Shown: one piece after another, positions 234 through 58,877 of the stretch
How the letters are laid out: every line of letters begins with the position of its first letter
Position numbering within the stretch: the stretch's first letter is position 1
Assembly: GCA_900318265.1 (NCBI GenBank)
Contig: ONKA01000007.1
Coordinates: forward strand, 1-64,000
Source: an uncultured Bacteroidales bacterium
Lineage (GTDB): Bacteria; Bacteroidota; Bacteroidia; Bacteroidales; F082
Direction: 5' to 3'
DNA length: 64,000 nt
Program-made: the position numbers and the translations under genes
The notes under the pieces: generated by a model
Databases searched by the model: none
The model's input: the letters and a program-made list of their open reading frames with translations, nothing else
What the model was told of the DNA's origin: nothing

Positions 234-2039
234 TCAATTAGATGCAGATTCGCCCACAAAGCCTCGAAGCGTCACGGAAAGCGGTTCCTCGCTGCCAAAA
301 ACGCCTTTCAGTTTGCGGCTGCGCTCGCTCACTGTGTTGTAGGCGCGCTGCATCAGGGCGGAGATGTCGGCATCCGAAAGGCCGAGCAGGTAGAGGCAGC
401 AATAGTCCAGGTCACCACGGGTGAGCTCTGGATAGGCCTTGGCCAGTCGGCTCGTGAACTGCCCAAAGTGGCGGTCGGCAGCCTCGCGCAAGGCCATCAC
501 CTGCTCCTTGCCCAAGGCATAGTCCTGATAGAGCTTGCAGTCCATCTGCGCCTTGAACTGCCCTTCGTTGAACGACACCGCTTGCGCCTCCTGTTTCGGA
601 GCGCCGTTGCCCGCCTGTTGCCGCATCTGGTCCTTCAGCTCGCGCAGTTCCTGATTGCTCCGTTTCAGCCTTCCCGACATTGAGGCTTTCTCCAAGCGGT
701 GCGCCTCTCGTTCGGCCTCCATCTGTTGGCTCGCCATGTCGCGCTGTTGCTTTATCCTGCGCCTAATCAGCAGCCAAGCCAACAGCGCCGCCACCGCAAC
801 CAGAACGCTCACCACGACGATCATCCTGTTCCTCCGCTGCCGCGCCGCCTGCTGCCTCTCGGCTTCGGCTCGCTCTTGCTCCCACTGCAAATGCTGCTGG
901 AACAATTCGTTGAGTTGTGAGACTTGTGCGTTGCTTTCCGCTTGAGAAACTGCATTTTCCACTTGATATACAGCATATTGGGTAGCCATTAGTGTATCAC
1001 CTCGGCTTTGGTAAATGTCGCGTAAAAATCTGGCGGCAGATCTTTTCATTGCAGCATCACCTTTGTTTTCAAATACTTGAGTAAAGTAGACCAATGCAGA
1101 ATCATATTGATTGGTTAAATAATAAATGTTTGCAATGGTATTATATCGTGTCAACTTTTCGTCTTCAGTAGGTGATTGAACCGCCATACGTTTCAAATCA
1201 TTTACAGGTTCTTCGCCGCCTCTGTTTTCATCAAAATAAACAACGGCTGATAACGAAATCAAATCCCTGTAAATCATATTGTTTGTATCGTACAACAGCC
1301 TCAAGGACTCGTCAAGACAATACTTGGCACTATCCAATTGGTTTATTTTGTAGTATTGTTTTGTAAGGAGACTCCACGTTTTGGCCGTGCCATTAGGAGA
1401 GGTTGGCTCTATACTATTGAAAATGAGGGCTTTCTTGTAACAAATAATGGCGGGTTCCTGCATATATTGTTTCGAAAACAAATCACCTAGCCGCCCGTAT
1501 GTCAACGCCATAAACCGAGGCAGGTGGGCTATTGGTAGAGACGGTGTGCACACCGTCTCTACATTCGGGAAATGCGTCTCCATAATCTCCAGCGCCTTCA
1601 GATACTCACCGCAAGCCGCCACCACGCTATCCCGTTCATAGAATCCCACACCATTCATATAATGCGCCCGCGCCGCCAAAAACCCGTCATCGATGGAATC
1701 AAAATACCCCACCGCCTTCAGCACCTCCGTTCGGTTGCTTTGTGCATAGTCATTCTTATATAGCAGCTCCGCAATCAGCACCTGACAATAATGTCCTTCA
1801 AACACATCCAAGCTATCCGCCTCAGGGCTTGCCGCAAACTCCATCATCACCGCCAAGGCGCTGTCAGGCTGGTGCCACATGAGGGTGTCGATTTGAGATA
1901 ATGCTATGGTCGGCCCTTCGACGCTTCGACAAGGCTCAGCGACCTCAAGCTCAGGGACCTCAACTTTAGTTGGTTGGGAGCAAGCCACCAGCATGGCCAG
2001 CCCAATCAGAAAGCTCACTATGTGCAAACACCGTTTCAC
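234..2039 (-). CDS. Membrane-tethered TPR protein with C-terminal HTH (one-component regulator type)
   Basis: About 602 aa from a GTG start at 2039. I chose this start because it opens a lipoprotein-type signal (VKRCLHIVSFLIGLAMLVAC, cysteine at 20) and lies 4 nt after a TATTTTTG box; an in-frame ATG at 2114 lies upstream of that promoter. After the signal come TPR-like helices to about residue 390, one transmembrane helix at about 404-424, a coiled coil, and a C-terminal helix-turn-helix-like segment (about 535-585, ending AYNTVSERSRKLK). Two paralogues with the same layout lie at 10916-12568 and 52477-53823. Predicted topology puts the TPRs outside and the HTH in the cytoplasm, so it probably senses an envelope state and controls nearby genes. 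The coding region holds a 28-bp palindrome (1535-1562) and a nested 24-nt repeat (1912-1959). Confidence 0.8.
   Translation of the reverse strand: MKRCLHIVSFLIGLAMLVACSQPTKVEVPELEVAEPCRSVEGPTIALSQIDTLMWHQPDSALAVMMEFAASPEADSLDVFEGHYCQVLIAELLYKNDYAQSNRTEVLKAVGYFDSIDDGFLAARAHYMNGVGFYERDSVVAACGEYLKALEIMETHFPNVETVCTPSLPIAHLPRFMALTYGRLGDLFSKQYMQEPAIICYKKALIFNSIEPTSPNGTAKTWSLLTKQYYKINQLDSAKYCLDESLRLLYDTNNMIYRDLISLSAVVYFDENRGGEEPVNDLKRMAVQSPTEDEKLTRYNTIANIYYLTNQYDSALVYFTQVFENKGDAAMKRSAARFLRDIYQSRGDTLMATQYAVYQVENAVSQAESNAQVSQLNELFQQHLQWEQERAEAERQQAARQRRNRMIVVVSVLVAVAALLAWLLIRRRIKQQRDMASQQMEAEREAHRLEKASMSGRLKRSNQELRELKDQMRQQAGNGAPKQEAQAVSFNEGQFKAQMDCKLYQDYALGKEQVMALREAADRHFGQFTSRLAKAYPELTRGDLDYCCLYLLGLSDADISALMQRAYNTVSERSRKLKGVFGSEEPLSVTLRGFVGESASN
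1535..1562. repeat. 28-bp palindrome, perfect copy, inside the TPR/HTH gene
   Basis: GTAGAGACG-GTGTGCACAC-CGTCTCTAC is identical to its own reverse complement over all 28 bp. On the minus coding strand it reads V-E-T-V-C-T-P-S-L (residues about 160-168). Six further copies with different, mostly still palindromic centres occur at 28688, 46809, 48708, 52298, 56670 and 58650. Confidence 0.9.
1912..1959. repeat. Two nested 24-nt stem-loop repeats, in frame in the TPR/HTH gene
   Basis: The 48 nt resolve into an outer copy split after GGCCCTTCGAC and resumed with AAGCTCAGGGACC, with a second complete 24-nt copy (GCTTCGACAAGG-CTCAGCGACCTC) between the halves. Removing the inner copy restores a consensus 24-mer. 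Both units are multiples of three, so the frame is kept; the segment encodes residues about 27-43, directly after the lipoprotein cysteine. The repeat is antisense to the gene here, unlike the STGS-coding copies. Confidence 0.85.
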
Positions 2040-7141: not shown

Positions 7142-8008
7142 TTATAACTTTATGATTTTATTCAAAAATAGGTTTCCGTCATTCATTGTGACCCGAATCG
7201 AGTAGATGCCCGCAGGCAAACCACTTACATTGATTTCGTTGCTGCCTTGAACAGTCTTCACCATCTGCCCAAGCCCATTATAAACCTGGACTTCGGCAGC
7301 CTCAACACCATCTATCGTCACTATTTCCATAGCAGGATTAGGATAAACAGAAATCACTTTTTCATTGATTTCTTCGACTGAAGTGATAACACATGCGTCG
7401 TATTCCGGATTTTGCCAAATGAGTTCCCCGTCTTGATGGAAGCAAAGGGCTCTATAGTAACCTCCACAGAAATAATAGGAACCACAATAGAGCAATCCTA
7501 AGTCACTGCCTATACCTTCTATCCATGTTTCCATAGCGTAAGGCTCTCCAGTAAAGTCATATTCTAATCCGAACCAAAACTTTTTCCGGTCAACCCCACC
7601 GATTTGCTCTATGCTGATAGAATCAAGAACGAAATAATCTCCATAGCCACAGACCAAAGAATCGCCTACATTGGCAGTGAAGTCATAGAGCAGTATTTCA
7701 GAATTACCATTATAGGTTTCCCATACCTTGCCATCCTCTTCCCTAAGCAAGGCAACCTGATAGGGAGTGCCCTCACCATTCAGGGTTTCCATGACTTTCG
7801 TATATCTCACTTCGTTAATCAGTGTGTCACCTGAAAGCCAATTGACTAAAGTGTTGTAATGACCTTCAGTATCTTTACACACTATAGCATCAAGCGTATA
7901 CCATTCGTTGCCCTCCTGGATCATAGGCTCATACTCTTGCGCTTGTGTTTTAACCCCTCCCGCCATCAGTAGGAGCGCAAGCAGGGTGAAAAATCTTGTT
8001 GCTTTCAT
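7142..8008 (-). CDS. T9SS type A sorting domain protein
   Basis: 288 aa from ATG 8008, chosen because the promoter box (8037-8044) would start transcription near 8031, after the alternative ATG at 8035. Signal peptide MKATRFFTLLALLLMAGGV... ends TQAQ. The middle domain (GDTLINEVRYTKVME, LLREEDGKVWE, LLYDFTANVGDSL) is a common secreted-protein domain in Bacteroidales and recurs near the C terminus of 53844-56852. The C-terminal about 75 residues are a sorting domain (VYPNPAMEIVTI, VYNGLGQMV, GLPAGIYSIRV). It should be exported by Sec, then by the type IX system. Confidence 0.88.
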   Translation of the reverse strand: MKATRFFTLLALLLMAGGVKTQAQEYEPMIQEGNEWYTLDAIVCKDTEGHYNTLVNWLSGDTLINEVRYTKVMETLNGEGTPYQVALLREEDGKVWETYNGNSEILLYDFTANVGDSLVCGYGDYFVLDSISIEQIGGVDRKKFWFGLEYDFTGEPYAMETWIEGIGSDLGLLYCGSYYFCGGYYRALCFHQDGELIWQNPEYDACVITSVEEINEKVISVYPNPAMEIVTIDGVEAAEVQVYNGLGQMVKTVQGSNEINVSGLPAGIYSIRVTMNDGNLFLNKIIKL

Positions 8009-22194: not shown

Positions 22195-22229
22195 ATTGTA
22201 GGGCTGCCATACTATGACAGCCCTACAAT
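22195..22229. terminator. 35-nt near-perfect palindrome after aspS
   Basis: ATTGTAGGGCTG pairs with CAGCCCTACAAT (12 bp), and most of the 11-nt centre is also self-complementary. It lies 6 nt after the aspS stop. There is no clear T-run, so it may be a processing site, a weak terminator or a dispersed palindrome. Confidence 0.55.
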
Positions 22230-27743: not shown

Positions 27744-27776
27744 AAAAAAGGTTCCGAAGCATCGGAACCTTTTTTT
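27744..27776. terminator. Bidirectional intrinsic terminator
   Basis: AAAAAAGGTTCCGA-AGCA-TCGGAACCTTTTTT lies between the convergent GGGtGRT and L,D-transpeptidase genes. The flanking A-run and T-run let it work in both directions. Confidence 0.9.
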
Positions 27777-28424: not shown

Positions 28425-30725
<2,301 letters not shown>

Positions 30726-45701: not shown

Positions 45702-46991
45702 ATGAAAAAATCAATGATCACAATTATCATCGCAGTCATGGTCGTCAGCATCGGTCATGCACAGTATTTGGATGGCACGATAACCCAACCCACTCACGTC
45801 GTCGCCAGGAGGATCAACTCTGACGGAGAGGTCACTAAGGAGTTTGCATCGGACTTTCACTATTACGAAGACGGGAAGCTGTCGCGCTACGAAATCCCCG
45901 AGTATTACTTGACAGCCACCTACACCTATACCGATGATTACCTCGAACACGAACGCATTGTCCACAATGGAGGCCATCCATTATTCGAAGAAAACAACCA
46001 CTACACCTATGAGAATGGACAAATCAAGACCATGAGCCATTTAATGGATCAAATGGGCTTCAGCTCGTTTTGGGTTTACAGCTATTATCCCGATGGCCGG
46101 CTGGAAAGAAAGGACTACAGGGAAGAAGACGAGAACGATTTCCACACGCATTGGCTGTACGAGTATGAGAACGAAGGCAAGACTGTCGTAGAGTCGTATT
46201 GCACGTCGTGGCCTTCGCAGGGAATGCTCCTGAGAAAGAAGACAACCAAACAGTATGACGACAATTTCGTCTTGTCTTCGACATATACGGAGAACTACAG
46301 TGAATCAGGAGAATTGACTTCAGCCACACGGACTGACTATGGCTATTCAGCCAGCGGACTGCTAGAGACGAAAACCACACAGACACTTATCGAAGACGAA
46401 TGGCACAATTCCTCTATTACGCGCTATTCGTATGATAATCAGGGGCAAATCACCGAACAGCTCGACTGCACATGGGACGCCGAAAACTCCGAATGGAACC
46501 CCACACACAAAATCGTTTTCGAAACCTCGGAACCAGAACAAACCTATACGGTTTCGTTTTATAAGAAAAGCGGTGGCGAATGGGTATGGGACGTCTTCAA
46601 CAGGCATACCATATTATTCGGTTCCAACCTAAAAGCCCAACAAAGTGCCTTGGGCTATTTTGTGTATGAGGAGATGAACGGCTATGGAAACATCAACCAA
46701 TTTGTGTTTACCATGGAGATGATGAATGAGCCGGTCTATTTGTCGGTTGAAGACCGCACGGGGTCAACTATTAATGTATATCCCAACCCCGCCAAGGGCA
46801 TTCTGTTTGTAGAGACGCGGCGCGCCACGTCTCTACCAGACAAAACCTACCGCATCACCAATATCATGGGACAAACTCTGCTGCAAGGCCACATCACCGC
46901 CGAAACACAACAAATTAATATAGCATCTCTGCCAGCGGGAATGTATTTCATTATCTTTGCGGGTGAGACACGAAAATTTGTCGTGAAATAA
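45702..46991 (+). CDS. T9SS protein with YD-like repeats
   Basis: 429 aa. The signal peptide ends SIGHAQ. The body has Y-Y/Y-x-D-G repeats (HYYEDGKLSRYEIPEYY, YSYYPDGRLERKDYREED, YSYDNQGQITEQLD) like YD/RHS-type beta-repeats in secreted proteins. The sorting domain starts INVYPNPAKGILFVET and ends GETRKFVVK; the 28-bp palindrome lies in it (46809-46836, VETRRATSL). First gene of the cluster; 18 nt to the next. Confidence 0.87.
   Translation: MKKSMITIIIAVMVVSIGHAQYLDGTITQPTHVVARRINSDGEVTKEFASDFHYYEDGKLSRYEIPEYYLTATYTYTDDYLEHERIVHNGGHPLFEENNHYTYENGQIKTMSHLMDQMGFSSFWVYSYYPDGRLERKDYREEDENDFHTHWLYEYENEGKTVVESYCTSWPSQGMLLRKKTTKQYDDNFVLSSTYTENYSESGELTSATRTDYGYSASGLLETKTTQTLIEDEWHNSSITRYSYDNQGQITEQLDCTWDAENSEWNPTHKIVFETSEPEQTYTVSFYKKSGGEWVWDVFNRHTILFGSNLKAQQSALGYFVYEEMNGYGNINQFVFTMEMMNEPVYLSVEDRTGSTINVYPNPAKGILFVETRRATSLPDKTYRITNIMGQTLLQGHITAETQQINIASLPAGMYFIIFAGETRKFVVK
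46809..46836. repeat. 28-bp palindrome in a T9SS sorting domain
   Basis: GTAGAGACG-CGGCGCGCCA-CGTCTCTAC, palindromic except one base pair. It reads V-E-T-R-R-A-T-S-L. Confidence 0.88.
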
Positions 46992-47009
46992 ACAAAAAAA
47001 CCTAATACC

Positions 47010-48890
47010 ATGAAAAAGCTATTTATAATTTCTGTATTAATGGCCTTGGTCATAAATGGATTCACGCAAAACCAATACGATTTCTCGTCTGTTTGTGAGA
47101 CAGGACAAACATTATTCTACCGCATTACCGATGCGGAAACGCACACCGTAACTTTAACACATCCTTGCTCGGAAAACGACCCCGGGTTCGAGGGCGATTA
47201 TTACGGGTATCATCCCCACCCAGAAGGTGTCATCGTTATCCCTTCCGAAGTGACTTACAACGGCATTGATTACTCAGTAACAGCCATTGATTCTCGTTCT
47301 TTCTGGGACTGCCTCATTACATCTATTTTTATACCAAACAGCGTAAACAATATCGTTCCTGGAGCATTTTCATCTTGTGAGTTTTTGGAATCCATCTCTA
47401 TGGACGAAGAAAACCCGACATACTATTCGGAAAACAACACCATCATCAGAAGGGAAGACAATGCGTTAGTAGTGGGATGCAAGGCAAGTATAATTCCTGA
47501 AGACATTGAGATTATTTGTCGGAACGCTTTCTTTTGCATGGGCAGCAGTGGTGTTTTGACAATTCCCAATTCTGTTAGAATTATTGAAGAATATGCTTTT
47601 GCGTATAATCATTTTTCGGGTTCGCTCACTCTCCCTGAATCGTTGGAAACCATAGGCGCAATGGCTTTCTATGTAGGCGGTTTTTCAGGGTCATTGACCA
47701 TGCCCAATTCGGTGACAGAAATAGGACATCATGCTTTTTATGGCTGTCATTTTAGTGGCAGCTTGACACTGTCTTCTTCGCTTTCTACAATTGAGAATTG
47801 CGCCTTTGCGAGATGCCATTTTTCTGGAACGCTCGTCATACCAAATTCTGTAAGCCTTATTGTTGGTGCTGCTTTTACTGAAAACGACTTTTCAGAACTT
47901 GTATTAGGAGAATCTGTAACTACTATCGAAAGCATCGCTTTTTCAGATTGCACCAATCTAACAGGAACATTAAGACTACCTGCCTCTCTTACACTGATTG
48001 ATCAAATGGCTTTCATTAACACTTCTTTCAACGAGATTTATTCTCCAAACAGATTGCCGCCTACGTTGGCTTCCAATGCCTTCCAAGGATATGACCCCAA
48101 CATCCCGATCCATATACCTTTCGGCTGCACCGAAGCTTATCAAAACGCCGAAGGGTGGAACTATTTCACCAACTTCATCGAAGAAGAGCCCATCATCTTT
48201 ACCATATTTGAGCCAGATACCTGCTTCACATTAAACTATCAAGACACTATTTATTGGGACCTTAACCAAGATGGGAACCAAGACATCTACTTTTATTTGG
48301 TTTGGCATTCTGCTGGAGGTTATATGACATTCATGAAGCCCAAAGCCAATTGGAAATGGAGCAACTCCATAAAAATCGATCAAACTCATTTTCAACCTTT
48401 GACGTACACCACAACGATAGATGAATCTTTATATTGGGAAGCCGGAGATTCATTTATCAATGGTTATGAAGAACCCGAATGGTGGCATTTTGCTTTTCGG
48501 CACCAAGCCGAGGATGGCATACACTATGGTTGGGCGCATATCAAAAACGCCGGGTATCGCCAGTTTTGTATCTCCGGCATGGGCTACTGCACCATACCAA
48601 ACTATCCCATCGTCTGGGGGCAAACCAATATTACCGAAGGCATGGAAGAAGAGACAATAGAAAATGATTTTTCGGTCTATCCCAACCCCGCCAACGGCGT
48701 CCTGTTCGTACAGACGCGCCATGGCACGTCTCTACCAGATCCAACCTACCGCATCACCAACATCATGGGACAAACCCTCCTTTCGGGTAACATCACCGAT
48801 GAGACCCAGCAGATTAATTTAGAATCGCTGCCTGCGGGCATGTATTTTATTACCTTTGCAGGTGAGACACGAAAATTTGTTGTGAGATAA
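47010..48890 (+). CDS. T9SS protein: LRR_5 repeats plus YPLVWGQT-type domain
   Basis: 626 aa. Signal peptide ends NGFTQ. Residues about 75-390 are LRR_5 repeats with a shared SGSLTLPxSLxTI pattern (BspA type). Residues about 395-538 are a domain ending YCTIPNYPIVWGQTN that also occurs twice in the next gene and once in 50211-50972. The sorting domain starts SVYPNPANGVLFVQT and carries the 28-bp palindrome (48708-48735). Surface adhesin-like; the ligand is unknown. Confidence 0.9.
   Translation: MKKLFIISVLMALVINGFTQNQYDFSSVCETGQTLFYRITDAETHTVTLTHPCSENDPGFEGDYYGYHPHPEGVIVIPSEVTYNGIDYSVTAIDSRSFWDCLITSIFIPNSVNNIVPGAFSSCEFLESISMDEENPTYYSENNTIIRREDNALVVGCKASIIPEDIEIICRNAFFCMGSSGVLTIPNSVRIIEEYAFAYNHFSGSLTLPESLETIGAMAFYVGGFSGSLTMPNSVTEIGHHAFYGCHFSGSLTLSSSLSTIENCAFARCHFSGTLVIPNSVSLIVGAAFTENDFSELVLGESVTTIESIAFSDCTNLTGTLRLPASLTLIDQMAFINTSFNEIYSPNRLPPTLASNAFQGYDPNIPIHIPFGCTEAYQNAEGWNYFTNFIEEEPIIFTIFEPDTCFTLNYQDTIYWDLNQDGNQDIYFYLVWHSAGGYMTFMKPKANWKWSNSIKIDQTHFQPLTYTTTIDESLYWEAGDSFINGYEEPEWWHFAFRHQAEDGIHYGWAHIKNAGYRQFCISGMGYCTIPNYPIVWGQTNITEGMEEETIENDFSVYPNPANGVLFVQTRHGTSLPDPTYRITNIMGQTLLSGNITDETQQINLESLPAGMYFITFAGETRKFVVR
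48708..48735. repeat. 28-bp palindrome in a T9SS sorting domain
   Basis: GTACAGACG-CGCCATGGCA-CGTCTCTAC; reads V-Q-T-R-H-G-T-S-L. Confidence 0.87.
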
Positions 48891-48911
48891 ACAAGCCAAA
48901 AAACTAATACC

Positions 48912-50129
48912 ATGAAAAAACTATTGATATTCTTAGCCATCCTAACCTGGACTTCATTGGCATTGAATGCCCAGCAGGGCGAAATCATCTACATAGATTT
49001 TGAACCTGACTCCTTAGTTGAACTTAAGCAATACGACCTCTATCCAGAGAGCAAAATGATGATAGATTTCGATTACGATGGTCACCCTGATATAAGAATC
49101 ACCAGTTATGTTTACTCTGCAGGAGGTTGGTTTGATATGATTTGTTATGAACCAGAATGGGAATTACACGAATTCAGACCTTGCGACACGCTGACACCAA
49201 TGAATGAACCAGAGCATTATTGGTCTACAAGGATTGCCTGGATGTGGGATTATTGTAACGGGATAGATACTATAAGCGACAAGTTTGCTGTTAGGCACAA
49301 AGTAGGAGACGCTTATTACTATGGATGGTTTAGGGTTTATATCACTCGTTGTCCGCCAAGTCCATATCCATGGGTTGCTTTAGATAAAATGGCCTATTGC
49401 ACCGATCCAAATTATCCTTTGGTTTGGGGACAAACAGAGATTCCACCCCAACCCGCAATCATCTATACTGATTATGATCCAGACTCCTGTATCACAGACC
49501 AATACACTAAACTTTGGGTTGATTTTGACGATGATGGCAATGGCGATATTTGTCTAAAAATGGATTATACAAGTACTGGATATTGGCCAGAAATCATCTC
49601 CTCAGATGACTGGGAGATAACATGGTTGGATGATGACGATACAGACACCATACCTAACATTGACCATTGGGGACACTCTTATCTATGGTTAGATGATGAA
49701 GGCCAAAGTCGTTTTGCCGCGCGAAAACAAATCGGAAACAATTACATATTTACTTGGTTTGAGGCATACAACTATGTGACATTTAATCCGTTTATTTGTC
49801 ATGTTTGTTTCGACAAATATGTCTATTGCACCGTTCCAAACTATCCTTTGGTGTGGGGACAAACCGAACTATTGGCCATAAAAGAAAACGACTATTCCAA
49901 CACCTTCGCCAGCGTCCACCCCAACCCCACCACAGGCCTCGTCACCATCGCAGGCGAGAACCTCAGGCAAGCCGAAGTGCTCAACATGCTCGGGCAGCAA
50001 ATGCTCAGCGTGCAGGGCGAGGGCAACGAGCTCCGCATCGACATGGCTGCACTGCCCGCAGGCGTCTACTTCTTCAACGTCACTGACGATGAAGGGCGCA
50101 AGTGCGTGCGGAAGGTGGTGAAAGAATAG
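48912..50129 (+). CDS. T9SS protein with two tandem YPLVWGQT-type domains
   Basis: 405 aa. Signal peptide ends ALNAQ. Two copies of one domain: residues about 25-175 and 183-319. Both start with IIY-x-D-[FY]-[ED]-P-D-S, have an Asp-rich loop (DFDYDGHPDI, DFDDDGNGDI), and end YCTxPNYPLVWGQTE. The sorting domain (VHPNPTTGLVTIAGENLRQA) is of a different type from the flanking genes, lacks the palindrome, and is shared only with 50211-50972. No named domain is recognised. Confidence 0.85.
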   Translation: MKKLLIFLAILTWTSLALNAQQGEIIYIDFEPDSLVELKQYDLYPESKMMIDFDYDGHPDIRITSYVYSAGGWFDMICYEPEWELHEFRPCDTLTPMNEPEHYWSTRIAWMWDYCNGIDTISDKFAVRHKVGDAYYYGWFRVYITRCPPSPYPWVALDKMAYCTDPNYPLVWGQTEIPPQPAIIYTDYDPDSCITDQYTKLWVDFDDDGNGDICLKMDYTSTGYWPEIISSDDWEITWLDDDDTDTIPNIDHWGHSYLWLDDEGQSRFAARKQIGNNYIFTWFEAYNYVTFNPFICHVCFDKYVYCTVPNYPLVWGQTELLAIKENDYSNTFASVHPNPTTGLVTIAGENLRQAEVLNMLGQQMLSVQGEGNELRIDMAALPAGVYFFNVTDDEGRKCVRKVVKE

Positions 50130-50160
50130 TAAAGATAATGCAGCCATGAAATAGTTTATC

Positions 50161-50168
50161 TACCTTTG
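50161..50168 (+). promoter_or_regulatory. -7 box and duplicated leader, copy 1
   Basis: TACCTTTG, followed by a leader that matches that at 51007 over the first 34 nt except one base. It contains ATG-AAG-CGG-TAA (50173-50184). Confidence 0.65.
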
Positions 50169-50210
50169 CGATATGAAGCGGTAACTAAACAACTTAAAAA
50201 CAATCATACC

Positions 50211-50972
50211 ATGAAAACAAAACTAATCTCTTTAGCCGTTTTATTGTTGTCCGCTTTCGCCATGAAAGCCCAGCAAGGCGAAATCATCTATAGGGATTTC
50301 GAGCCAGATTCCACATTGAAATTATGGAGCGATATCCGTTCTATGACGATTGACCTTGATGGAGAAGGTTCGCCAGATATAGAATTGTATTATACAATCG
50401 GAGGAGGATTGGGTATAATTTCTCCGCACATTCATTCTAATAAACCAGATGTTCTTGAGCTGTGCGCAATTGATTCGGTTTACGTTATTCCCAACAATGA
50501 AGCATGGGTTACGGATGTTAGCGAGTGGGTTGTACGGGCCAATGATTGTTATGCCTTTCGTTATAAACATAACGACGGGTATTTGTACGGCTGGTTTGAA
50601 ACCTTTAAGAAAGAAGTCATAGAAAACGGGCTTCGTGAAGTTTATTGGGGCGTTGATAGGGTCGCTTTCTGCACAATTCAGGATTATCCATTGGTTTGGG
50701 GCCAAACAAACTTCACGGGTATATATGAAAATGACAACCCATCCACCTTCACCACCATTCATCCCAACCCCACCACAGGCCTCGTAACCATCACTGGCGA
50801 CAACCTGCAACAGGCCGAAGTGCTCAACATGCTCGGGCAGCAGGTGCTCAGCGTGCAGGGCGAGGGCAACGAGCTCCGCATCGACATGGCTGCGCTGCTC
50901 GCAGGCGTCTACTTTGTCAACGTCACCAACGAGGAAGGGCGCAGGTGCGTGCGGAAGGTGGTGAAGGAATAA
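50211..50972 (+). CDS. T9SS protein with one YPLVWGQT-type domain
   Basis: 253 aa from ATG 50211 (MKTKLISLAVLLLSAFAMKA, then QQGEIIYRDFEPDS). One copy of the repeated domain (about 24-166, DLDGEGSPDIE, ending DYPLVWGQTN), then the same sorting domain type as the preceding gene (PNPTTGLVTITGDNLQQAEV). It looks like a shortened paralogue of 48912-50129. In this cluster it is the first gene behind its own promoter. Confidence 0.85.
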   Translation: MKTKLISLAVLLLSAFAMKAQQGEIIYRDFEPDSTLKLWSDIRSMTIDLDGEGSPDIELYYTIGGGLGIISPHIHSNKPDVLELCAIDSVYVIPNNEAWVTDVSEWVVRANDCYAFRYKHNDGYLYGWFETFKKEVIENGLREVYWGVDRVAFCTIQDYPLVWGQTNFTGIYENDNPSTFTTIHPNPTTGLVTITGDNLQQAEVLNMLGQQVLSVQGEGNELRIDMAALLAGVYFVNVTNEEGRRCVRKVVKE

Positions 50973-51006
50973 ACATATAGAATACCCAGCCATATAAAAA
51001 CTTATT

Positions 51007-51014
51007 TACCTTTG
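51007..51014 (+). promoter_or_regulatory. -7 box and duplicated leader, copy 2
   Basis: TACCTTTG with a leader nearly identical to that at 50161, including ATG-AAG-CGA-TAA (51019-51030). It drives an unrelated gene. Confidence 0.65.
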
Positions 51015-51055
51015 CGATATGAAGCGATAACTAAACAACTATAACAACCAATACC

Positions 51056-52480
51056 ATGAAAAAGACAATCATTACCTTAATCATTGCCCTCGGCTGCTTC
51101 AGCTTTCTTGAGGCTCAATCCATTCAAAAGCCAGAACGGGTTTATAAACGCTACACCTATGCCGATATCTTTAACAACGATACCATTACAGAAGAAATGA
51201 CACTAGAAGGGACTTTTCATTACAACATCCATGATTTGGTCTCATCTTATGAATGCTCAATACAATATGGCAGCTATGGCAACGAATATTACAGAAAAAA
51301 CTATTGGTATGACAACGACTCGCATATTATCAAATATTCATTTAGCGGGTATGATGGTGGCGGTATAATTGGCGACGACAGCGTCTACTATGTATATGAT
51401 AACGACTTGCTATCTTATTCCAAAAAGCTTTATGTCAACAAATGGGGAGGATGGTACTATACAGATAGCGTAGCTTACTATTATTATGACGATGGTACTC
51501 TAAAACGAAAAGAGCAATACGGCAGAAACCCTGATGATTTGCATTGGCCTTCTTCTCCAAGTATAGTTACCGAGATCGCTTATGATGAAACAGGGGCGGA
51601 AAAGATAAAGACTGAAACTCAGATTCGTAATGGGAAAGTCTATTACCGCAAAACCTCCCACTATGACCTAAACGACCATATCATATACTTCCTAAATGAA
51701 GGCTATAACGGTTATGACTATTTATGGGCGGGTTATACTATAGCCTATGGATACGAAAACGGACTTTGCCAAACCAAAACACGGCAAAAATGGGTTGTTG
51801 CCGACAGTTGCTGGGTCAACGATTCAAGTTTTATTTTCCAATACAATGATATAGGGATTAGGACAGAAGAGCTTGCGCAAATATGGGTTGATAACGAATG
51901 GCAAAACGCACAACGAACCCGATGGGAAGTGGATGAAGACGACACCATGCACAGTATCACATACGAAGTGTGGAACGATAGCCTATTCACCAACAGCAAA
52001 AGGGTGGAATACCAATATGAAAACGGACTGTGCATAGGTTTGGTTGGATTGGTGTGGTCAGGAGATAGTTGGGTGTATGGAATGGCAGGAGTGAATGGGG
52101 TTGGCGGAAACAATGAACGCATATTTTGGGATGAATCGCTCAGCACTGAAGACAATCTGATCAGGGTAACTCATCACAGCTTCACGAACACCACAATAAT
52201 CTGGCAAACCCTGTATGAAGGCATCGACGAAAAAGAAGAAAAAACCAAAGCGAGTGATTTCACGGTCTATCCCAATCCTGCCAACAACATCCTATTTGTA
52301 GAGACCCGCCATGGCACGTCACTACCAGACCAAACCTACCGCATCACCAACATCATGGGACAAACCCTCTTGCAAGGTTCGATTAACGCTGAAATCCAGC
52401 AGATTAATATAGCATCCCTACCCGCAGGATTGTATTTCCTCAGCGTGGGCAACACGACGCAGAAATTTGTGAAACAATGA
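51056..52480 (+). CDS. T9SS protein with YD-like repeats
   Basis: 474 aa. Signal peptide ends FLEAQ. Repeats such as KYSFSGYDGG, YYYDDGTLKRKEQYG, ALCQTKTRQKW-type strands recall 45702-46991, of which it is a distant paralogue. The sorting domain starts TVYPNPANNILFVET with the palindrome at 52298-52325 and ends NTTQKFVKQ. Its stop overlaps the TPR/HTH gene start (ATGA). Confidence 0.86.
   Translation: MKKTIITLIIALGCFSFLEAQSIQKPERVYKRYTYADIFNNDTITEEMTLEGTFHYNIHDLVSSYECSIQYGSYGNEYYRKNYWYDNDSHIIKYSFSGYDGGGIIGDDSVYYVYDNDLLSYSKKLYVNKWGGWYYTDSVAYYYYDDGTLKRKEQYGRNPDDLHWPSSPSIVTEIAYDETGAEKIKTETQIRNGKVYYRKTSHYDLNDHIIYFLNEGYNGYDYLWAGYTIAYGYENGLCQTKTRQKWVVADSCWVNDSSFIFQYNDIGIRTEELAQIWVDNEWQNAQRTRWEVDEDDTMHSITYEVWNDSLFTNSKRVEYQYENGLCIGLVGLVWSGDSWVYGMAGVNGVGGNNERIFWDESLSTEDNLIRVTHHSFTNTTIIWQTLYEGIDEKEEKTKASDFTVYPNPANNILFVETRHGTSLPDQTYRITNIMGQTLLQGSINAEIQQINIASLPAGLYFLSVGNTTQKFVKQ
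52298..52325. repeat. 28-bp palindrome in a T9SS sorting domain
   Basis: GTAGAGACC-CGCCATGGCA-CGTCACTAC; reads V-E-T-R-H-G-T-S-L. Less perfect at the ends. Confidence 0.85.
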
Positions 52481-53823
52481 AAACACGATGTATCATCATG
52501 GCAGTCCTTCTGTTGGTGGGCCTCGCGTCTTGCCAGCAAGGCGCACGTAGCCTAAAAGAAGCCGAGACGCTCTTTCAACAAGGCGTAGAGCAACGTGCCG
52601 ACAAACATACGGAGGCCGCTGCCGAAAGCTTCAGCCAGGCCCTGCTCGCCATCGAACGCTGCGACACGGAACAACCTGAGGTGCAGCGGCTGAAAGCCCA
52701 GATCGAGGACAACCTCGGCTTCTGCTACTGGAAACACGAGCTGTTTGCGGAAGCCCTGCCGCTGCATGCCGACGCCGCCACCCGGGCCCGCGAACTCAAC
52801 GACTCCACACTATTGATGACCTCCCTGCGCAACAGCGGTCGCGCTGTGGCCTCGTCGGGCGACATCGACGCGGCAGAACAGCATTACAAGGAAGCCCTTG
52901 CCATCGCCAAAGCCTTGAATGACAAATCCATGGAAAGCGACATCCTGCTTGAGTTGAGCCGCGATGTGTACATACCCAAAGGAGCCTACAACCATTCGGT
53001 GAAATGCGTCACCCAAGCTTTGGAAGGCGGAGCCGATGCCGACATCTGCCACCTGACCTTGGGTTTGGCACACTATTATTTGGCCCACGACAGCCTCGCC
53101 ATGCTGCATCTCGAAGAAGCCACCAAGAGCAAACAAGCCGGCACCCGAATGTCGGCCTACCAAACTCTGTCGTTCATTTACCAAATTGCAAAAGACTACC
53201 AAAAATCTCTTGAATGCCAAGAGCTTTTCTATAACAACCTGATGCAGGCCGACCAAGAGCATCGCAGCGAGCAGGTGCAGCGCATCAAAGGTGAATATGA
53301 GCTCCAAATGCAGAAAAACAGCCTACAAGCCGAGCAAAAACTGAAGAGCCTCTATCTCTACCTCATTTTAGGCGGCTTGGTGGTGGCCTTGGCCGTTGTG
53401 TTGCTGCTGTTGCGACAAAAATCGCTCAGTGCCAAGCTGAAAGCCGAAGAGATGAAGAACCAGTTGGAGACCGAGCTGAAAAAGAACAAGGTCTACGTTA
53501 CCGCCTTGGCCCTCACCGAGCAAATCACAGCCTCGACCCTCGACTTCGACCTGAAGGACAGCGAATGGGACGACTTCGTGGTGCTCATCGACAAGGTGTA
53601 CGGCGACTTCACCCAACGCCTCACGACACAATACCCCTCCCTTACCAAGAGCGACCTGCAAATCTGCTGCCTCACCAAGCAAGGCTTCAGCAACCAGGTC
53701 ATCTCCATCCTGATGAACCTACAAACCAACAGCTACGCCCGCCGCAAGTCGCGCATCAAGCAAGAGAAGATGAACGGGCTGGAAGACGAACGGAGCTTTG
53801 AGGAGATAATCAACGAGATATGA
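52477..53823 (+). CDS. Membrane-tethered TPR protein with C-terminal HTH
   Basis: 448 aa. Lipoprotein signal (MKTRCIIMAVLLLVGLASC), TPR-like repeats to about residue 270, a transmembrane helix at about 290-312, a coiled coil (SLSAKLKAEEMKNQLETELK) and an HTH-like C terminus (YPSLTKSDLQICCLTKQGFS, NLQTNSYARRKSRIKQE). The third paralogue of this architecture. The 4-nt overlap with the T9SS gene before it puts translation of regulator and cargo in step. Probably a local regulator of this cluster; inferred. Confidence 0.87.
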   Translation: MKTRCIIMAVLLLVGLASCQQGARSLKEAETLFQQGVEQRADKHTEAAAESFSQALLAIERCDTEQPEVQRLKAQIEDNLGFCYWKHELFAEALPLHADAATRARELNDSTLLMTSLRNSGRAVASSGDIDAAEQHYKEALAIAKALNDKSMESDILLELSRDVYIPKGAYNHSVKCVTQALEGGADADICHLTLGLAHYYLAHDSLAMLHLEEATKSKQAGTRMSAYQTLSFIYQIAKDYQKSLECQELFYNNLMQADQEHRSEQVQRIKGEYELQMQKNSLQAEQKLKSLYLYLILGGLVVALAVVLLLLRQKSLSAKLKAEEMKNQLETELKKNKVYVTALALTEQITASTLDFDLKDSEWDDFVVLIDKVYGDFTQRLTTQYPSLTKSDLQICCLTKQGFSNQVISILMNLQTNSYARRKSRIKQEKMNGLEDERSFEEIINEI

Positions 53824-53843
53824 ACGAATAAAAACACCATACA

Positions 53844-56800
53844 ATGAAAAAGCTAACCTTAATCAACATCTTGTTTTTCTTTGCCATAAATGGTTTCGCG
53901 CAAGAAGTCCATTTCGATTTCTCGGTCATCAATTCGACGGGCTATGAGATTTTTTACCGCATTGTTGACCCAGTGAACCATTGGGTGGAAGCCACCTACC
54001 CTTGCCAAAACGGCGACAACTATTGGTGGGGCTACGACAAGCCCGAGGGCAAGCTCATCCTCGCCGACAGCGTTACCCATGAGGGGACAACCTACACCCT
54101 TGTTGCCATCGGTGACCACGCCTTTTGTGGTTGTTCAGGCTTGAGAGGCACGCTTGCATTGCCACAAACCATCACCGCCATCGGAGACGGAGCCTTTAAA
54201 GGCTGCTCCAACATAAACGGCAATTTGAACATTCCAACCTTGGTGACACATATCGGAAACGAAGCATTTTACGATTGTTCAAAACTGTCGGGACAATTGT
54301 TTTTAAGCGACTCGTTGACTTACATCGGCGACAAGGCTTTCTATCATTGCAACAGGTTGTCCGACAGGTTGGTCATCCCCGGCAGAACCACTTATATCGG
54401 CAACAACGCCTTCGAACAATGCGGGTTCAGTGGCAGAATCCTGCTCCCAGTAACGTTGGAAACCATCGGAACAGAGGCATTTAAAGGCATGTCGGACATC
54501 AGCAGTATCTGCAGCAAGGCCATCGTGCCACCCTCCACAGACGAAAGCGCTTTTGAGGGCATATCCCGATGGATTTACCTGGTTGTACCCTACAATACGA
54601 TTGAAGCCTATCAAAACGCACCTGGCTGGTCGCGTTTCAACCAAAGAACCATCGAAAAATCCATTTGGAACGGCACCGCCGAGCCCTGGACCAAAGGCAG
54701 CGGCACCCGCGAAAACCCTTATCTTATCGAGTCGGCCGAAAATCTAGCGTGGTTGGCCCAATCAGTGAACCAAGCTGTGAACATCAGCATCGACACGGTT
54801 TTGAATACAAATGGCGATATGCAAGTCGACACCACATATCATGACGTTTTGGCCTATCAGGGCATCTATTTCCGACAGGTGATTGACATCGACCTCCAAA
54901 GAGACTATGGCTTTTTATGGGATCCCATCGGCAACATGCATTATGGAGACAACATCGACTACTGCACCTATTTCTGTGGACATTATGACGGCAACGGCCA
55001 CAAGATAAGGAACTTTAAGATTAACATACCAACAAACTATGCGATTACCACAAACGACTATTATTATGGTTTGTTCGGAATCGTAATGAACGGTAGCCTT
55101 ACCAACATTAACACTTCAGTCGTTGTCATTGAAGTTGAAGATCAACAAAACAAATGCATTGGAGGCCTTGTAGGAAAAGCCGTCAACGCCCAATTGATTA
55201 ACTGTCATAACGGTGGACAGTGGCTCCGTTGCGGACTTCTCGAGCAAGAGTACGTCTTACACGTGTTCAACACCTCCGTTGGAGGCATCGTAGGCGTGGC
55301 CGAAAAGAGCCTCATCGAGAATTGCAGCAATTCAGGCGGAATAAAAGTTGTTTACGGTTCATCCTCAACCAGCAAGAATGGTGTTGGAGGCGTGGTCGGT
55401 GTTTTCCTATGTGATGAGGAACCCACCGGAAACAATGGTATCATTGGATGCAGTTTCACTGGCAATTTAGAGGCCCATGGTTTCATGACAGAGGCCGATG
55501 GAGGTGGAATTGTAGGACTATGTGCCAGCAGTGCAGAAGGTTCGGGATCAATAAAACTTGAAAGATGTTCCAGTAAAGGAATGGTGTTCGGCGACTGCAT
55601 CCATGGAAATGAACCAAAGATGATCAGCTTAGGTGGTATTGTGGGCAATGTGCTTGATATTGACACTTTATCTGTAATCAGCTGCTATTCAAACGACTCC
55701 TTGCCCGCCAATGCCGAAGACATGGAATCCTATGCGGGCGGTATCATCGGAAAGGCCCATCCCAACACCACGCTCTTCGTCAAGAACTGCTATCACACTG
55801 GTTCGATCACTTCATACAATAGCGGAGGCATCGTGGTCCAAAACACCAACATGACCCTTGTCAGAAACTGCTATTTCGACGAAACCGTGGCTCCCGACGA
55901 CGGCTTTGGCATTCCCTTGGACAACGATTATATGAAGTCGGCGGCTTTTGTCAACCAACTCAATAACGGCAGCTCCGTGTTCATGAAAGACCACGAGCCC
56001 TATGTAAACGACGGCTATCCCATCTTTGGCACCGACGGCCTCATCTTTGTGGGCGCAGAATGGTATTACGAAATCGTGGAAAACGATGGTACCATCTGCT
56101 ATCAGCATTTGCAGTGCACAGGCGACACCACCATCAACGAAGATCGGCCCAAGGTCCTCGTGCGCAGCAACACGCAATACGACCGTGGCAAACACACCGA
56201 GGTGACACACGAATACGTCTATGAAAAAGACGGAAAGGTGTATTGGTGGAACAAAGAACTGCAAGTTTTCACCGTGCTCTACGACTTCGGCGCTGAGGTG
56301 GGCGACGAATGGGAGATCCTGGTAGGTTCGGATAGCATCGCCACAAAAGTCTACGAGATTGAGAACTATCTGATAGAAGGCATTCCCTACAAGAAAATGA
56401 CCATTGGCGATGCCAACAACCTCTTCAGCGGCACACTCATCAGCACCATCGGCCACCTCACCAGCTTCTTCCCCGAAAAACTGATGACGCGCGGCAAAGG
56501 CTACCAAGTGGATGGCCTGCGCTGCTACTGGCTCGACGGCGACCTCATGCTCAAACTCGGCGACCACGATTGCGACGAGGTGTATCAGCAATACCACAAT
56601 GGCATCGACGAGCCGACGGATGATGCGGTGTTTGCGGTATATCCCAATCCGACCAACGGCGTCCTCTTTGTAGAGACGGTGTGCACACCGTCACTACCAG
56701 CGGAAACCTACCGCATCTCCGACCCCATGGGGCAAACCCTGCTGCAAGGCAATATCACCGCTGAGACGCAACAGATTAATATCGAAAACCTGCCTGCCGG

Positions 56801-56852
56801 AATGTATTTCATTACCGTTGCAGGCGAGACACGGAAATTTATAGTCAAATGA
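53844..56852 (+). CDS. T9SS protein: LRR_5 repeats, beta-helix-like region, sorting domain
   Basis: 1002 aa. Signal peptide ends NGFAQ. LRR_5 repeats about 75-265 (FCGCSGLRGTLALPQTITAI), then a region from GSGTRENPYLIESAENLAWL to about 720 with GLUG-like repeats (GGIVGVAEKSLIENCSNSGG), a domain like that of 7142-8008 (GDTTINEDRPKVLV, LYDFGAEVGDEWEI) and the sorting domain VYPNPTNGVLFVETV with a palindrome at 56670. The largest cargo of the cluster; likely a surface adhesin or binding protein. Confidence 0.88.
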   Translation: MKKLTLINILFFFAINGFAQEVHFDFSVINSTGYEIFYRIVDPVNHWVEATYPCQNGDNYWWGYDKPEGKLILADSVTHEGTTYTLVAIGDHAFCGCSGLRGTLALPQTITAIGDGAFKGCSNINGNLNIPTLVTHIGNEAFYDCSKLSGQLFLSDSLTYIGDKAFYHCNRLSDRLVIPGRTTYIGNNAFEQCGFSGRILLPVTLETIGTEAFKGMSDISSICSKAIVPPSTDESAFEGISRWIYLVVPYNTIEAYQNAPGWSRFNQRTIEKSIWNGTAEPWTKGSGTRENPYLIESAENLAWLAQSVNQAVNISIDTVLNTNGDMQVDTTYHDVLAYQGIYFRQVIDIDLQRDYGFLWDPIGNMHYGDNIDYCTYFCGHYDGNGHKIRNFKINIPTNYAITTNDYYYGLFGIVMNGSLTNINTSVVVIEVEDQQNKCIGGLVGKAVNAQLINCHNGGQWLRCGLLEQEYVLHVFNTSVGGIVGVAEKSLIENCSNSGGIKVVYGSSSTSKNGVGGVVGVFLCDEEPTGNNGIIGCSFTGNLEAHGFMTEADGGGIVGLCASSAEGSGSIKLERCSSKGMVFGDCIHGNEPKMISLGGIVGNVLDIDTLSVISCYSNDSLPANAEDMESYAGGIIGKAHPNTTLFVKNCYHTGSITSYNSGGIVVQNTNMTLVRNCYFDETVAPDDGFGIPLDNDYMKSAAFVNQLNNGSSVFMKDHEPYVNDGYPIFGTDGLIFVGAEWYYEIVENDGTICYQHLQCTGDTTINEDRPKVLVRSNTQYDRGKHTEVTHEYVYEKDGKVYWWNKELQVFTVLYDFGAEVGDEWEILVGSDSIATKVYEIENYLIEGIPYKKMTIGDANNLFSGTLISTIGHLTSFFPEKLMTRGKGYQVDGLRCYWLDGDLMLKLGDHDCDEVYQQYHNGIDEPTDDAVFAVYPNPTNGVLFVETVCTPSLPAETYRISDPMGQTLLQGNITAETQQINIENLPAGMYFITVAGETRKFIVK
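56670..56697. repeat. 28-bp palindrome in a T9SS sorting domain
   Basis: GTAGAGACG-GTGTGCACAC-CGTCACTAC; reads V-E-T-V-C-T-P-S-L, matching the perfect copy at 1535 except one base. Confidence 0.88.
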
Positions 56853-56951
56853 TTTAAAACCGAGGCGCAACTCTCACATAACAGTCCCAAAGGAACAAAC
56901 CAAATTGGTGGCTGTTTAGCTAGAACTATGTCATAATCAAAACTGAAAAGA

Positions 56952-58835
56952 ATGGAAAATAAAGAACATAAATCATTGATTTTCATAATATTAATAGGAG
57001 TTTCAATGAATATTTTCGGCCAAACGGAGAAGGTTGTTTTCTCCGCTCCAGGAGGTTTTTATGAGACCAGCTTTTCATTGTCGTTGGAATGTCTGTCCGC
57101 CCTACACCACGTGCGATACACCACAAACGGAGCCTCACCCAACACCACTTCCCGTCTGTACGAACAACCGCTTTGGCTTGACAAGAGCCTATACTCGCAT
57201 TCCGACATCTACACTATCCAAACTGGTCCGGAAAACATCTTCTACCTGCCCGATTCCGTCCAACACTGCATCGTCATTCGTGCCGCCGTATTCGACGAAA
57301 ACGACAGTTGCATTAGTGCGACCACAACCCAATCCTATCTGATCCGTGACTTGGACAACATTGACACTCAACTCCCCATGCTCTCCATCTGTGCTGATTC
57401 CCTCGACCTGTTTGACAACGAGCAAGGCATTATGGTGCCAGGCGTTTTCTTCGACAACACCAACCTCGACCATTCGGGCAACTATTATCAAACGGGAAGG
57501 GAATGGGAACGTGTTGTGAATGTGGAATATCATGATCCTGCCAACAATAGCGGCATCAACCAGACCTGTGGGCTAAGAACCCACGGCAACCGTGCCCGTC
57601 GCTATCCACAAAAAGGCTTGAAAATCTATGCCCGCGAGGAATACGGTAAGAAACGCTTCACATACCCATTCTTCGAAAACAGCCCGCTCAACAGTTTCAA
57701 ACACTTGGTCATCAAGCCCTATTCGTCACTTTATCCCTATACTGGCATTCAAGACTATATTTGCAGCCAGACCGCTATCGACATGGGCTTGGAGGCAGGA
57801 CTATCGCGACCTGTCGTGCTCTTTCTTAACGGCGAATACTGGGGCATTTATTTCCTACAGGAGAAAACGGATGAGCGGTATCTTGAAGACCATTTCGGGA
57901 TTGACATAGACCATTGCCAAATCGTTAGCAACTGGAACGGATTGGCCCAATACGGCGGTCAAGTCGACGACTATGGCGACAACATCGAGTTTGCGAACAT
58001 GATGGATTGGCTTGAGACGGTTAACCTTTCGAGAGAAAGTGACTATCAACACCTGTGTGAACTCATCGACATCGACAACTTCATAGACTACATCATCCTG
58101 GAAACTTTCATCGCCAACAACGACTGGCCCGCCAACAATATGCGGTGTTGGAAAATGGACGAAGGCAGATGGCGTTGGATGTTCTTTGACGGTGACGCCG
58201 CACTCAACAACTTTAACCTCGATCCTTTCGGCAACGCCATCCCTCTCGATGTTTTCGGCAACGCCACCTACACAGGAGAATATAACTGGCCATCAAGCCG
58301 AAAAGCAACCCTACTATTTAGGAGATGCCTTGAAAACCATGAGTTTACATCCCGTTTCGAAAGCAGAATGTCGCAATTGTGCAACGAGGTTCTTACCTAT
58401 GAAAAAACGGGGGCGTATTATCATCACATCTTAGAATTGTTGCATCCGGAAATAACGGCACAATCCTTCAGGTTTGGCTATCCATCCCATGTCAATTATT
58501 GGAACTGGGCTTGCACCCTTATCGACGACTTCCTATCAAACCGAGTGAATACTTATTTTGCTGAATACGAGAATCATGTGGGACTAGATGAATATTCGGC
58601 ATCGACCTCGTTTTCCTTATATCCCAATCCTGCTAACGGTGTCCTGTTCGTTGAGACGGTGCATGCACCGTCTCTACAAGACCAAACCGCGTACCGCATT
58701 TCCAACCTCATGGGACAAACCTTGCTACAAGGCAAAATAACTGCTGAGACGCAACAGATTAATATCGAAAACCTGCCTGCCGGAATGTATTTCATTACCG
58801 TTGCGGGCGAGACACGGAAATTCATGGTACAATAA
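56952..58835 (+). CDS. T9SS protein with CotH kinase-like domain
   Basis: 627 aa. A signal sequence (SLIFIILIGVSMNIFGQ) is followed by a chitobiase-like N-terminal domain (FSAPGGFYETSFSLSLECLS, IRYTTNGASPN-type). A CotH domain follows, with NGEYWGIYFLQEKTDERYL (near 294) and RWRWMFFDGDAALNNF (near 405). CotH family members are atypical protein kinases or surface proteins; activity here is unproven. The sorting domain starts SLYPNPANGVLFVETV with a palindrome at 58650. Last gene of the cluster, before a strong terminator. Confidence 0.88.
   Translation: MENKEHKSLIFIILIGVSMNIFGQTEKVVFSAPGGFYETSFSLSLECLSALHHVRYTTNGASPNTTSRLYEQPLWLDKSLYSHSDIYTIQTGPENIFYLPDSVQHCIVIRAAVFDENDSCISATTTQSYLIRDLDNIDTQLPMLSICADSLDLFDNEQGIMVPGVFFDNTNLDHSGNYYQTGREWERVVNVEYHDPANNSGINQTCGLRTHGNRARRYPQKGLKIYAREEYGKKRFTYPFFENSPLNSFKHLVIKPYSSLYPYTGIQDYICSQTAIDMGLEAGLSRPVVLFLNGEYWGIYFLQEKTDERYLEDHFGIDIDHCQIVSNWNGLAQYGGQVDDYGDNIEFANMMDWLETVNLSRESDYQHLCELIDIDNFIDYIILETFIANNDWPANNMRCWKMDEGRWRWMFFDGDAALNNFNLDPFGNAIPLDVFGNATYTGEYNWPSSRKATLLFRRCLENHEFTSRFESRMSQLCNEVLTYEKTGAYYHHILELLHPEITAQSFRFGYPSHVNYWNWACTLIDDFLSNRVNTYFAEYENHVGLDEYSASTSFSLYPNPANGVLFVETVHAPSLQDQTAYRISNLMGQTLLQGKITAETQQINIENLPAGMYFITVAGETRKFMVQ
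58650..58677. repeat. 28-bp palindrome in a T9SS sorting domain
   Basis: GTTGAGACG-GTGCATGCAC-CGTCTCTAC; reads V-E-T-V-H-A-P-S-L. The centre differs from the neighbouring copy but is still palindromic. Confidence 0.88.
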
Positions 58836-58843
58836 TACCAGAC

Positions 58844-58877
58844 AAAAAACGGAGGAACTGAGGTTCCTCCGTTTTTA
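58844..58877. terminator. Intrinsic terminator, likely bidirectional
   Basis: AAAAACGGAGGAAC-TGAG-GTTCCTCCGTTTTT between the convergent CotH-like and nucleoside hydrolase genes. The stem is 14 bp with A and T tracts on both sides. Confidence 0.9.

Follow-up and report, generated by a model that had tools for sequence, protein, structure and literature searches.

The window analysed here is a stretch of 64,000 nucleotides (contig ONKA01000007.1, positions 1 to 64,000, forward strand) from assembly GCA_900318265.1 of an uncultured Bacteroidales bacterium. It contains genes ending in sorting domains of the type IX secretion system (T9SS), five of which carry in frame a 28-bp palindrome of the arm pattern GTAGAGACG-N10-CGTCTCTAC, with 14 pair positions, five of them in the centre (Table 1). 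Seven copies of this family were present in the window, five in sorting domains and two elsewhere. The sorting-domain copies are read in one common frame as V-(E/Q)-T-xxxx-S-L, and the copies at 1535 and 28688 use the same frame. A first-pass annotation of the window had reported the five sorting-domain copies with correct positions, centres and peptides, while overlooking the exact-arm copies at 1535 and 28688; among its five, both arms are exact at 46809 only. Its description of the centres as self-complementary is largely accurate, with CGGCGCGCCA and CGCCATGGCA pairing at 4/5 positions because of an outer C/A mismatch. The feet GT[AG]G (5') and C[TC]AC (3') are present in the window copies, with one deviating foot each at 48708 (GTAC) and 58650 (GTTG). 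Exact matches to the arm pattern numbered three in the window and zero in 100 shuffles, only six 28-bp frames of the window had at least 13/14 pairs (five belonging to this family), and the genome contained 60 exact-arm matches while a reversed control gave none. The family is not a product of chance.

Table 1. Palindromes, sorting domains and related features of the window, followed by palindrome centres at orthologous slots and transposase loci. G000 is the source genome, other G numbers are compared genomes, L numbers are retrieved loci and C denotes a contig.
Feature	Location	Strand	Remarks
Double-foot REP, centre CGGCGCGCCA	46809..46836	+	arms exact; 13/14 pairs; slot 1 of sorting domain; VETRRATSLP
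Double-foot REP, centre CGCCATGGCA	48708..48735	+	one arm mismatch (E to Q); 12/14 pairs; slot 1; VQTRHGTSLP
Double-foot REP, centre CGCCATGGCA	52298..52325	+	two arm mismatches, both synonymous; 11/14 pairs; slot 1; VETRHGTSLP
Double-foot REP, centre GTGTGCACAC	56670..56697	+	one synonymous arm mismatch; 13/14 pairs; slot 1; VETVCTPSLP
Double-foot REP, centre GTGCATGCAC	58650..58677	+	one synonymous arm mismatch; 13/14 pairs; slot 1; VETVHAPSLQ
Double-foot REP, centre GTGTGCACAC	1535..1562	-	arms exact; 14/14 pairs; in frame in open reading frame (ORF) of TPR protein (gene on -)
Double-foot REP, sense centre TTTCAGGAAA	28688..28715	-	arms exact; 13/14 pairs; in frame in linker of GH97 glycoside hydrolase (gene on -)
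T9SS type A sorting domain	46776..46988	+	gene 45702-46991
T9SS sorting domain	48675..48887	+	gene 47010-48890
T9SS sorting domain	52265..52477	+	gene 51056-52480; orthologous slot compared in 13 genomes
T9SS sorting domain	56637..56849	+	gene 53844-56852
T9SS sorting domain	58617..58832	+	CotH-like gene 56952-58835
T9SS sorting domain, other subfamily, no REP	49914..50126	+	comparison
T9SS sorting domain, other subfamily, no REP	50757..50969	+	comparison
Conserved gene adjoining sorting domain	52477..53823	+	synteny anchor
GH97 gene with the 28688 REP in linker	28425..30722	-	
Orthologous slot, centre CGCCATGGCA	G000, G019		
Orthologous slot, centre CGATTAATCG	G012, G007, G024		
Orthologous slot, centre CGACCAATCG	G021		
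Orthologous slot, centre TTGCATGCAC	G016		
Orthologous slot, centre TTGCGCGCAA	G033		
Orthologous slot, centre GTGTGCACAC	G002		
Orthologous slot, decayed CAGCGCGTCA	G028		
Orthologous slot, canonical single-foot REPs with other arms	G018, G022; G030		one type in G018 and G022, another in G030
RAYT internal centre GTGTGCACAC	L080, L081		
RAYT internal centre TAGCGCGCTA-like	L082, L084		
RAYT internal centre CGCCATGGCA	L083, L085, L088, L107		
RAYT internal centre ATGTGCACAT	L086		
RAYT internal centre TTTCAGGAAA	L087		
RAYT internal centre CAAAATTTTG-like	L089-L091		
RAYT internal centre CGGCATGCCA	L097		
RAYT internal centre CACGGCCGTG	L098		
RAYT internal centre CGATGAATCG	L106, L108, L109		

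The palindromes are double-foot GTAG repetitive extragenic palindromes (REPs) of the kind that belongs to subclass 2.4, or group 4, of the REP-associated tyrosine transposases (RAYTs, or TnpAREP), and are thus short elements without genes. Copies occurred in 43/60 relatives, and exact-arm copies in 37/296 sampled genomes of the phylum, the source genome being counted in both. A scan of named genomes retrieved at least 118 loci, of which 80 were displayed. Bacteroidota, many Cyanobacteria and scattered other phyla are among the records, and all five centre pairs were formed in 57 of the 87 copies at the 80 loci. Since centres are palindromic in copies everywhere, the symmetry is a property of the element and not of the sorting domain. 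In the source genome, 52 distinct places among the 60 exact copies were viewed in context (54 rows, two places entered twice), and the same centres recurred inside and outside ORFs, GTGTGCACAC being the commonest. Eight of the 52 lay in sorting domains, although these account for roughly 1% of the genome; no p-value is attached to this enrichment, as the copies are related by descent. Across the 118 loci of the named-genome scan, 4/146 exact copies were in sorting domains. The two bases on each side of the REP, inspected by eye in the 54 rows for a target-site duplication like that of a MITE, formed no consistent direct repeat, with no empty sites for comparison.

Eleven sorting domains were recognized in the window by PF18962, including all five that bear the palindrome; those at 7151, 8323, 9263 and 39218 contained no arm match allowing up to one mismatch. 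Two of the five REP-bearing domains scored 45.3 and 47.9 bits against TIGR04183 (cut-off 23) and 51.4 and 51.6 bits against PF18962 (cut-off 27). In a predicted model of one domain (pLDDT 86), the REP-coded residues 12-21 comprise the end of strand 1 (9-13) and the loop that precedes strand 2 (24-28), and fall in the lowest-confidence block of the model. A Foldseek search with this model gave no match at E 0.001 or better; the best was 8qb1_A, the mirolase C-terminal domain (E 3e-3, TMq 0.73), followed by 8glk_D (E 0.049). Sorting domains of known structure are thus among the top matches, though their E-values are modest. On this predicted model, the slot that takes the REP in one subfamily of T9SS sorting domains is the beta1-beta2 loop. 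A profile search of four genomes collected 44 sorting domains, 33 of them close (E 4e-16 or better) and 11 weaker. Among the close domains, the slot held a REP in 31/33 and another repeat in 2/33, and was empty in 0/33; two of the 31, on contig C16 of the source genome, are partial domains. In the two exceptions (L328 and L329, on contigs C10 and C11 of the source genome) the slot contains a short tandem repeat that encodes IHHSAFRIHHSEF or a similar peptide. None of the 10 weaker matches that were parsed had a REP of this type in the slot, G000:C20:199-294 being left out. The fixation within sorting domains proposed in the first-pass annotation is confined to one subfamily: REP-bearing domains are a minority in the source genome, 14 having been seen among at least 150 counted by PF18962 (150 of 175 candidates scored), not each of which was examined. 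A second loop of the sorting domain also carries a REP in some cases (L232/L239 and L275, and L198 and L213 in other Bacteroidales), and in L232 and L239, from G012 and G007, the same domain has a REP in each of two loops, the two belonging to different families.

The centre of the REP is a family label, and in RAYT lineages the lineage's own centre is found both next to and within the transposase gene. The RAYT of the source genome (G000:C6:57758-58321) was located by way of a palindrome that its gene contains: the ORF, which has the motif MPNHLH, encloses the GTGTGCACAC palindrome, the same palindrome lies just outside the gene and others lie on the opposite side. The protein scored 59 bits against NF047646 (REP_Tyr_transpos), below the cut-off of 80, and 18.7 against Pfam Y1_Tnp, below the cut-off of 23. 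Compared with the subclass 2.4 motifs NH[IFV]H, WQ and YIxNNP, it has NHLH, WQ and YIENNV, while others have NHVH, NHIH or NHFH. Relatives were detected in 26 of the 40 genomes sampled from the genus (G000 included; many are incomplete drafts). Among 25 of 30 retrieved RAYT loci (the partial matches L101-L105 were left out), 18 carried an internal palindrome with arms of this type in the ORF region, in open frames and at a position after MPNHxH that is visible in the translations. At 17/25 loci both internal and flanking copies (within 400 bases) were present, and in 17/17 at least one flanking centre agreed with the internal one within one base. Of the rest, L098 had the internal copy only, L093 had flanking copies only, and L092, L094, L095, L096, L099 and L100 had none of this arm type. 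Copies with centre GTGTGCACAC numbered 23 in G000 and 20 in G002, the only genomes in which a RAYT of that centre was seen, and at most nine in the 38 others. Median copy number was 22 in 25 genomes with a RAYT versus 4 in 11 genomes without one (p 0.003, a guide only, as the genomes are related and not independent). Outside the genus, 7/80 displayed loci had a RAYT match that overlapped the palindrome or lay no more than about 70 bases from it. Four PF01797 matches in the source genome were rejected as partners, having no palindrome of this family (up to four arm mismatches) within about 1.5 kb on each side. On motif reading we take three of them to resemble IS200-type TnpA and one, L019, to be a RAYT with other palindromes. 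L019 (G000:C17) is flanked by two different palindromes, CTGCAATCGGCCCGATTGCAG and CGTCAGTCGGGCCGACTGACG (1154-1174 and 1866-1886).

The domain at 52265 was compared in 13 genomes, G000 included, using the conserved gene directly after it as the anchor. A REP occupied the orthologous slot in 13/13 genomes and belonged to at least seven types (Table 1). In G019 the domain ends somewhat farther from the anchor gene, and in G029 the contig holds only the end of that gene. Relatives of both canonical slot REPs, with one to three mismatches, were found at RAYT loci L095 and L094/L100. The five closest CotH-like relatives (L051-L055) vary likewise, two having a decayed slot; among the more distant relatives the sorting domains are of other kinds. 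One of the two alternatives offered in the first-pass annotation, that different family members came to occupy one site, is supported: the centres are those of REP families that are dispersed, a matching RAYT is present for many of them, and orthologous slots hold different families.

For the slot statistics, 43 copies with at most three arm mismatches were taken from 52 parsed sorting domains, and centres were assigned to the nearest of seven families. In this preselected set 40/43 copies retained at least four of five centre pairs, and the majority of non-palindromic copies that would have contradicted that annotation was not observed. Pairs of domains shared a centre more often within a genome (33/131) than between genomes (113/772; p 0.013). 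The nearest domain by flanks shared the centre in 22/43 cases (p 0.0002) and differed in 21/43. All 13 asymmetric slot centres were in one orientation, one having a changed last base. The sharing of centres and the single orientation favour copying among sorting domains. Conversely, in the 45 bases that follow the REP the orthologues of G002 and G024 were 93% alike and yet had different centres, while the closest same-genome domain to that of G002 had the same REP and a near flank only 84% alike, a pattern that favours change confined to the REP. L310 (G033:C1) has an in-frame tandem doublet in the slot, with centres TTTCCCGAAA and TTTCAGGAAA. Such a doublet is what the arrival of a second REP next to the resident one would produce, and is a possible intermediate of replacement.

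Taken overall, the slot is probably best explained by a REP in a tolerated loop, where new families enter or replace the resident and from which they then spread between sorting domains. In one sorting-domain lineage the beta1-beta2 loop would have acquired an in-frame REP, which was tolerated; new families would have inserted beside or in place of this REP; and duplication together with short-tract gene conversion would have carried these to further sorting domains, while copies decayed by mutation. The palindromic centres would follow from the action of a REP as a hairpin, as the literature describes, and not from any need of the protein for a palindrome. No benefit to the host from slot REPs is needed. 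As for the manner of entry, a RAYT-driven cassette exchange, in which the resident REP is cut at its GTAG/CTAC feet and replaced, or a new REP inserts beside it with later collapse, is a rather unlikely option. If true, it would make the coding REP a docking site reloaded in frame by different RAYT systems and would diversify the loop of the sorting tags of secreted proteins.

Several observations weigh against entry or replacement followed by spread. RAYT-driven movement of REPs is itself a proposal; no RAYT with centre CGGCGCGCCA or GTGCATGCAC was present among the 25 RAYT loci, and the RAYTs at L080, L081 and L082 are also flanked by copies with other centres. Shared descent connects the 43 slot copies, and likewise the 25 RAYT loci; many of the genomes are incomplete drafts; and the collecting profile, built from REP-bearing domains, favours filled slots. 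Since the subfamily yielded no empty slot, the first insertion is undatable and its ends undefined; other kinds of sorting domain have about equal loop length. The single orientation could reflect peptide selection. Finally, in the seven genomes that allowed both comparisons, the near flank was closer to orthologues in G002, G028 and G033, closer to a same-genome paralogue in G000, G019 and G024, and equal in G021, and with this split neither process alone is established.

The strongest competitor is gene conversion alone, in which REPs were inserted long ago into separate empty domains and short-tract conversion between paralogues has since shuffled them, so that orthologous slots would come to differ with no exchange at the REP. 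We regard it as possible, though less probable than entry or replacement followed by spread. Besides the within-genome sharing of centres and the single orientation described above, it gains from the arm variant GTACAGACG with TTGCGCGCAA, present in three G033 sorting domains and one in G022, and from near flanks that resemble the paralogue more than the orthologue (0.93 vs 0.91 in G000, 0.96 vs 0.93 in G024, 0.69 vs 0.58 in G019). However, orthologues with different REPs exceeded same-REP paralogues in near-flank likeness not only in G002 (0.93 vs 0.84) but also in G033 (0.87 vs 0.80), the downstream peptide DQTY accompanies five centre families (by nearest-family assignment), and the absence of empty slots among the 33 close domains also argues against it. 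Selection on the peptide, by which the sorting domain would profit from a VETxxxxSLP loop and the palindrome would arise incidentally from the codons of that loop, is improbable. It would account for the single reading frame of the slot copies and for synonymous arm changes in 13/29 cases against an expected fraction of 0.315, but this excess is weak (p 0.09, or 0.04 with one shared change collapsed), the inner four residues vary freely, very different slot peptides exist (VRLPQCDSPT, VRTHAVRPYE, IHHSAFRIHHSEF), and the same 28-mers also occur outside ORFs of 100 codons.

Least probable, by a little, is maintenance in situ, through template-switch repair of one arm from the other or selection on an mRNA hairpin, with new centres evolving in place. 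The first-pass annotation had entertained such upkeep of the dyad; in the slot it is not supported. A compensated arm pair (GTTG..CAAC) does occur in the slot of G012 and G007, and GTTG..CAAC copies were found at eight places in 6/40 genomes. Outside the slot, compensated changes exceeded expectation in the genus (pair 1, 4 vs 0.97; pair 2, 2 vs 0.43) and in other phyla (seven at pairs 5, 6, 7 and 9 vs fewer than 0.1), and the centre of the GH97 linker REP is inverted between G000 and G029. Against this, slot copies lose symmetry through one-sided substitutions that are left uncorrected, and their sole compensated arm pair is a single event common to G012 and G007; compensated pairs outside the slot may mark subfamilies. 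Furthermore, the centres found in the slot are also those of dispersed families, several of which have a RAYT of their own, and the slot is also occupied by canonical REPs with other arms. Covariation at pair 3 (nine compensated vs 1.5 expected) was not used, since seven of the nine came from loci retrieved by that very variant. Entry or replacement at the REP, then spread between domains, is the reading favoured here.

The double-foot REP element and its association with a transposase are already known. Quentin et al. 2018 (PMC6006769), in the portions available to us, describe 'double foot' REPs of subclass 2.4 (RAYT group 4), whose two ends are GTAG and CTAC, in Cyanobacteria and Bacteroidetes, and in-frame copies inside the transposase genes, as observed here; unlike here, nothing on sorting domains or on replacement of REP families at an orthologous coding site was met in those portions. 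Similarly, the available portions of Di Nocera et al. 2013 (PMC3733652) report GTAG/CGTC REPs in frame in many genes, suggested to form linkers or loops, and different REPs near the same recB site in X. campestris and X. oryzae. These intragenic GTAG REPs resemble the present ones in lying in frame and in differing at about the same site, but in those portions the GTAG repeats are listed for Proteobacteria, Cyanobacteria, Chloroflexi and PVC and not for Bacteroidetes, and no multi-genome series at one slot was met. Rickettsia palindromic elements (RPEs) are likewise short palindromic repeats in frame in protein genes; according to the same source portions, RPE-4 and RPE-6 bear the tag CGTC, and no transposase is associated with CGTC repeats, whereas the REPs here have GTAG/CTAC ends and matching RAYTs. 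Co-evolved transposase and palindrome are a trait in common with the TnpAREP/REP pairs that Corneloup et al. 2021 (PMC8266576) examined in vitro, where GTAG and the hairpin are both used in recognition. The available portions of that paper compare groups 2 and 3, contain no test of a group 4 double-foot pair that we met, and describe REP movement as poorly understood.

No report of REPs in T9SS sorting domains was found by the searches made of the open-licence full-text literature, and within the reach of these a regularly occupied, reloaded coding REP slot in a secretion signal appears to be new. The arm string itself is present in 143 papers, and the titles of the 20 listed ones are on unrelated subjects. 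With recognizable flanks, and filled in every compared genome by differing REP families, the slot offers a natural assay of REP movement: it would show replacement at base resolution and point to donor families and their transposases. It also suggests that a secretion signal can tolerate repeated turnover of a loop by mobile DNA.

In the GH97 linker a REP was present in 4 of 29 parsed loci (30 retrieved), its centres belonging to three families; at the remaining 25 the linker is a different one. Other repeat-like runs, e.g. CCAACTCCTTACTCC and CTCTCACCTCTAACC, were seen in the linkers of L027, L031-L033, L037, L038 and L048, and the linker looks permissive to several kinds of insert. An ORF at L004 (G000:C7), by eye like the window TPR gene (234-2114), has two REPs near its start (1501 and 1613). 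A canonical REP, GTAGGGCTGCCATACTATGACAGCCCTAC, lies at 22198-22226 of the window, five mismatches from the slot REP of G030. Two further strong palindromes, at 27746-27773 (13/14 pairs) and 58847-58874 (12/14), are situated just past ORF ends and are terminator-like.

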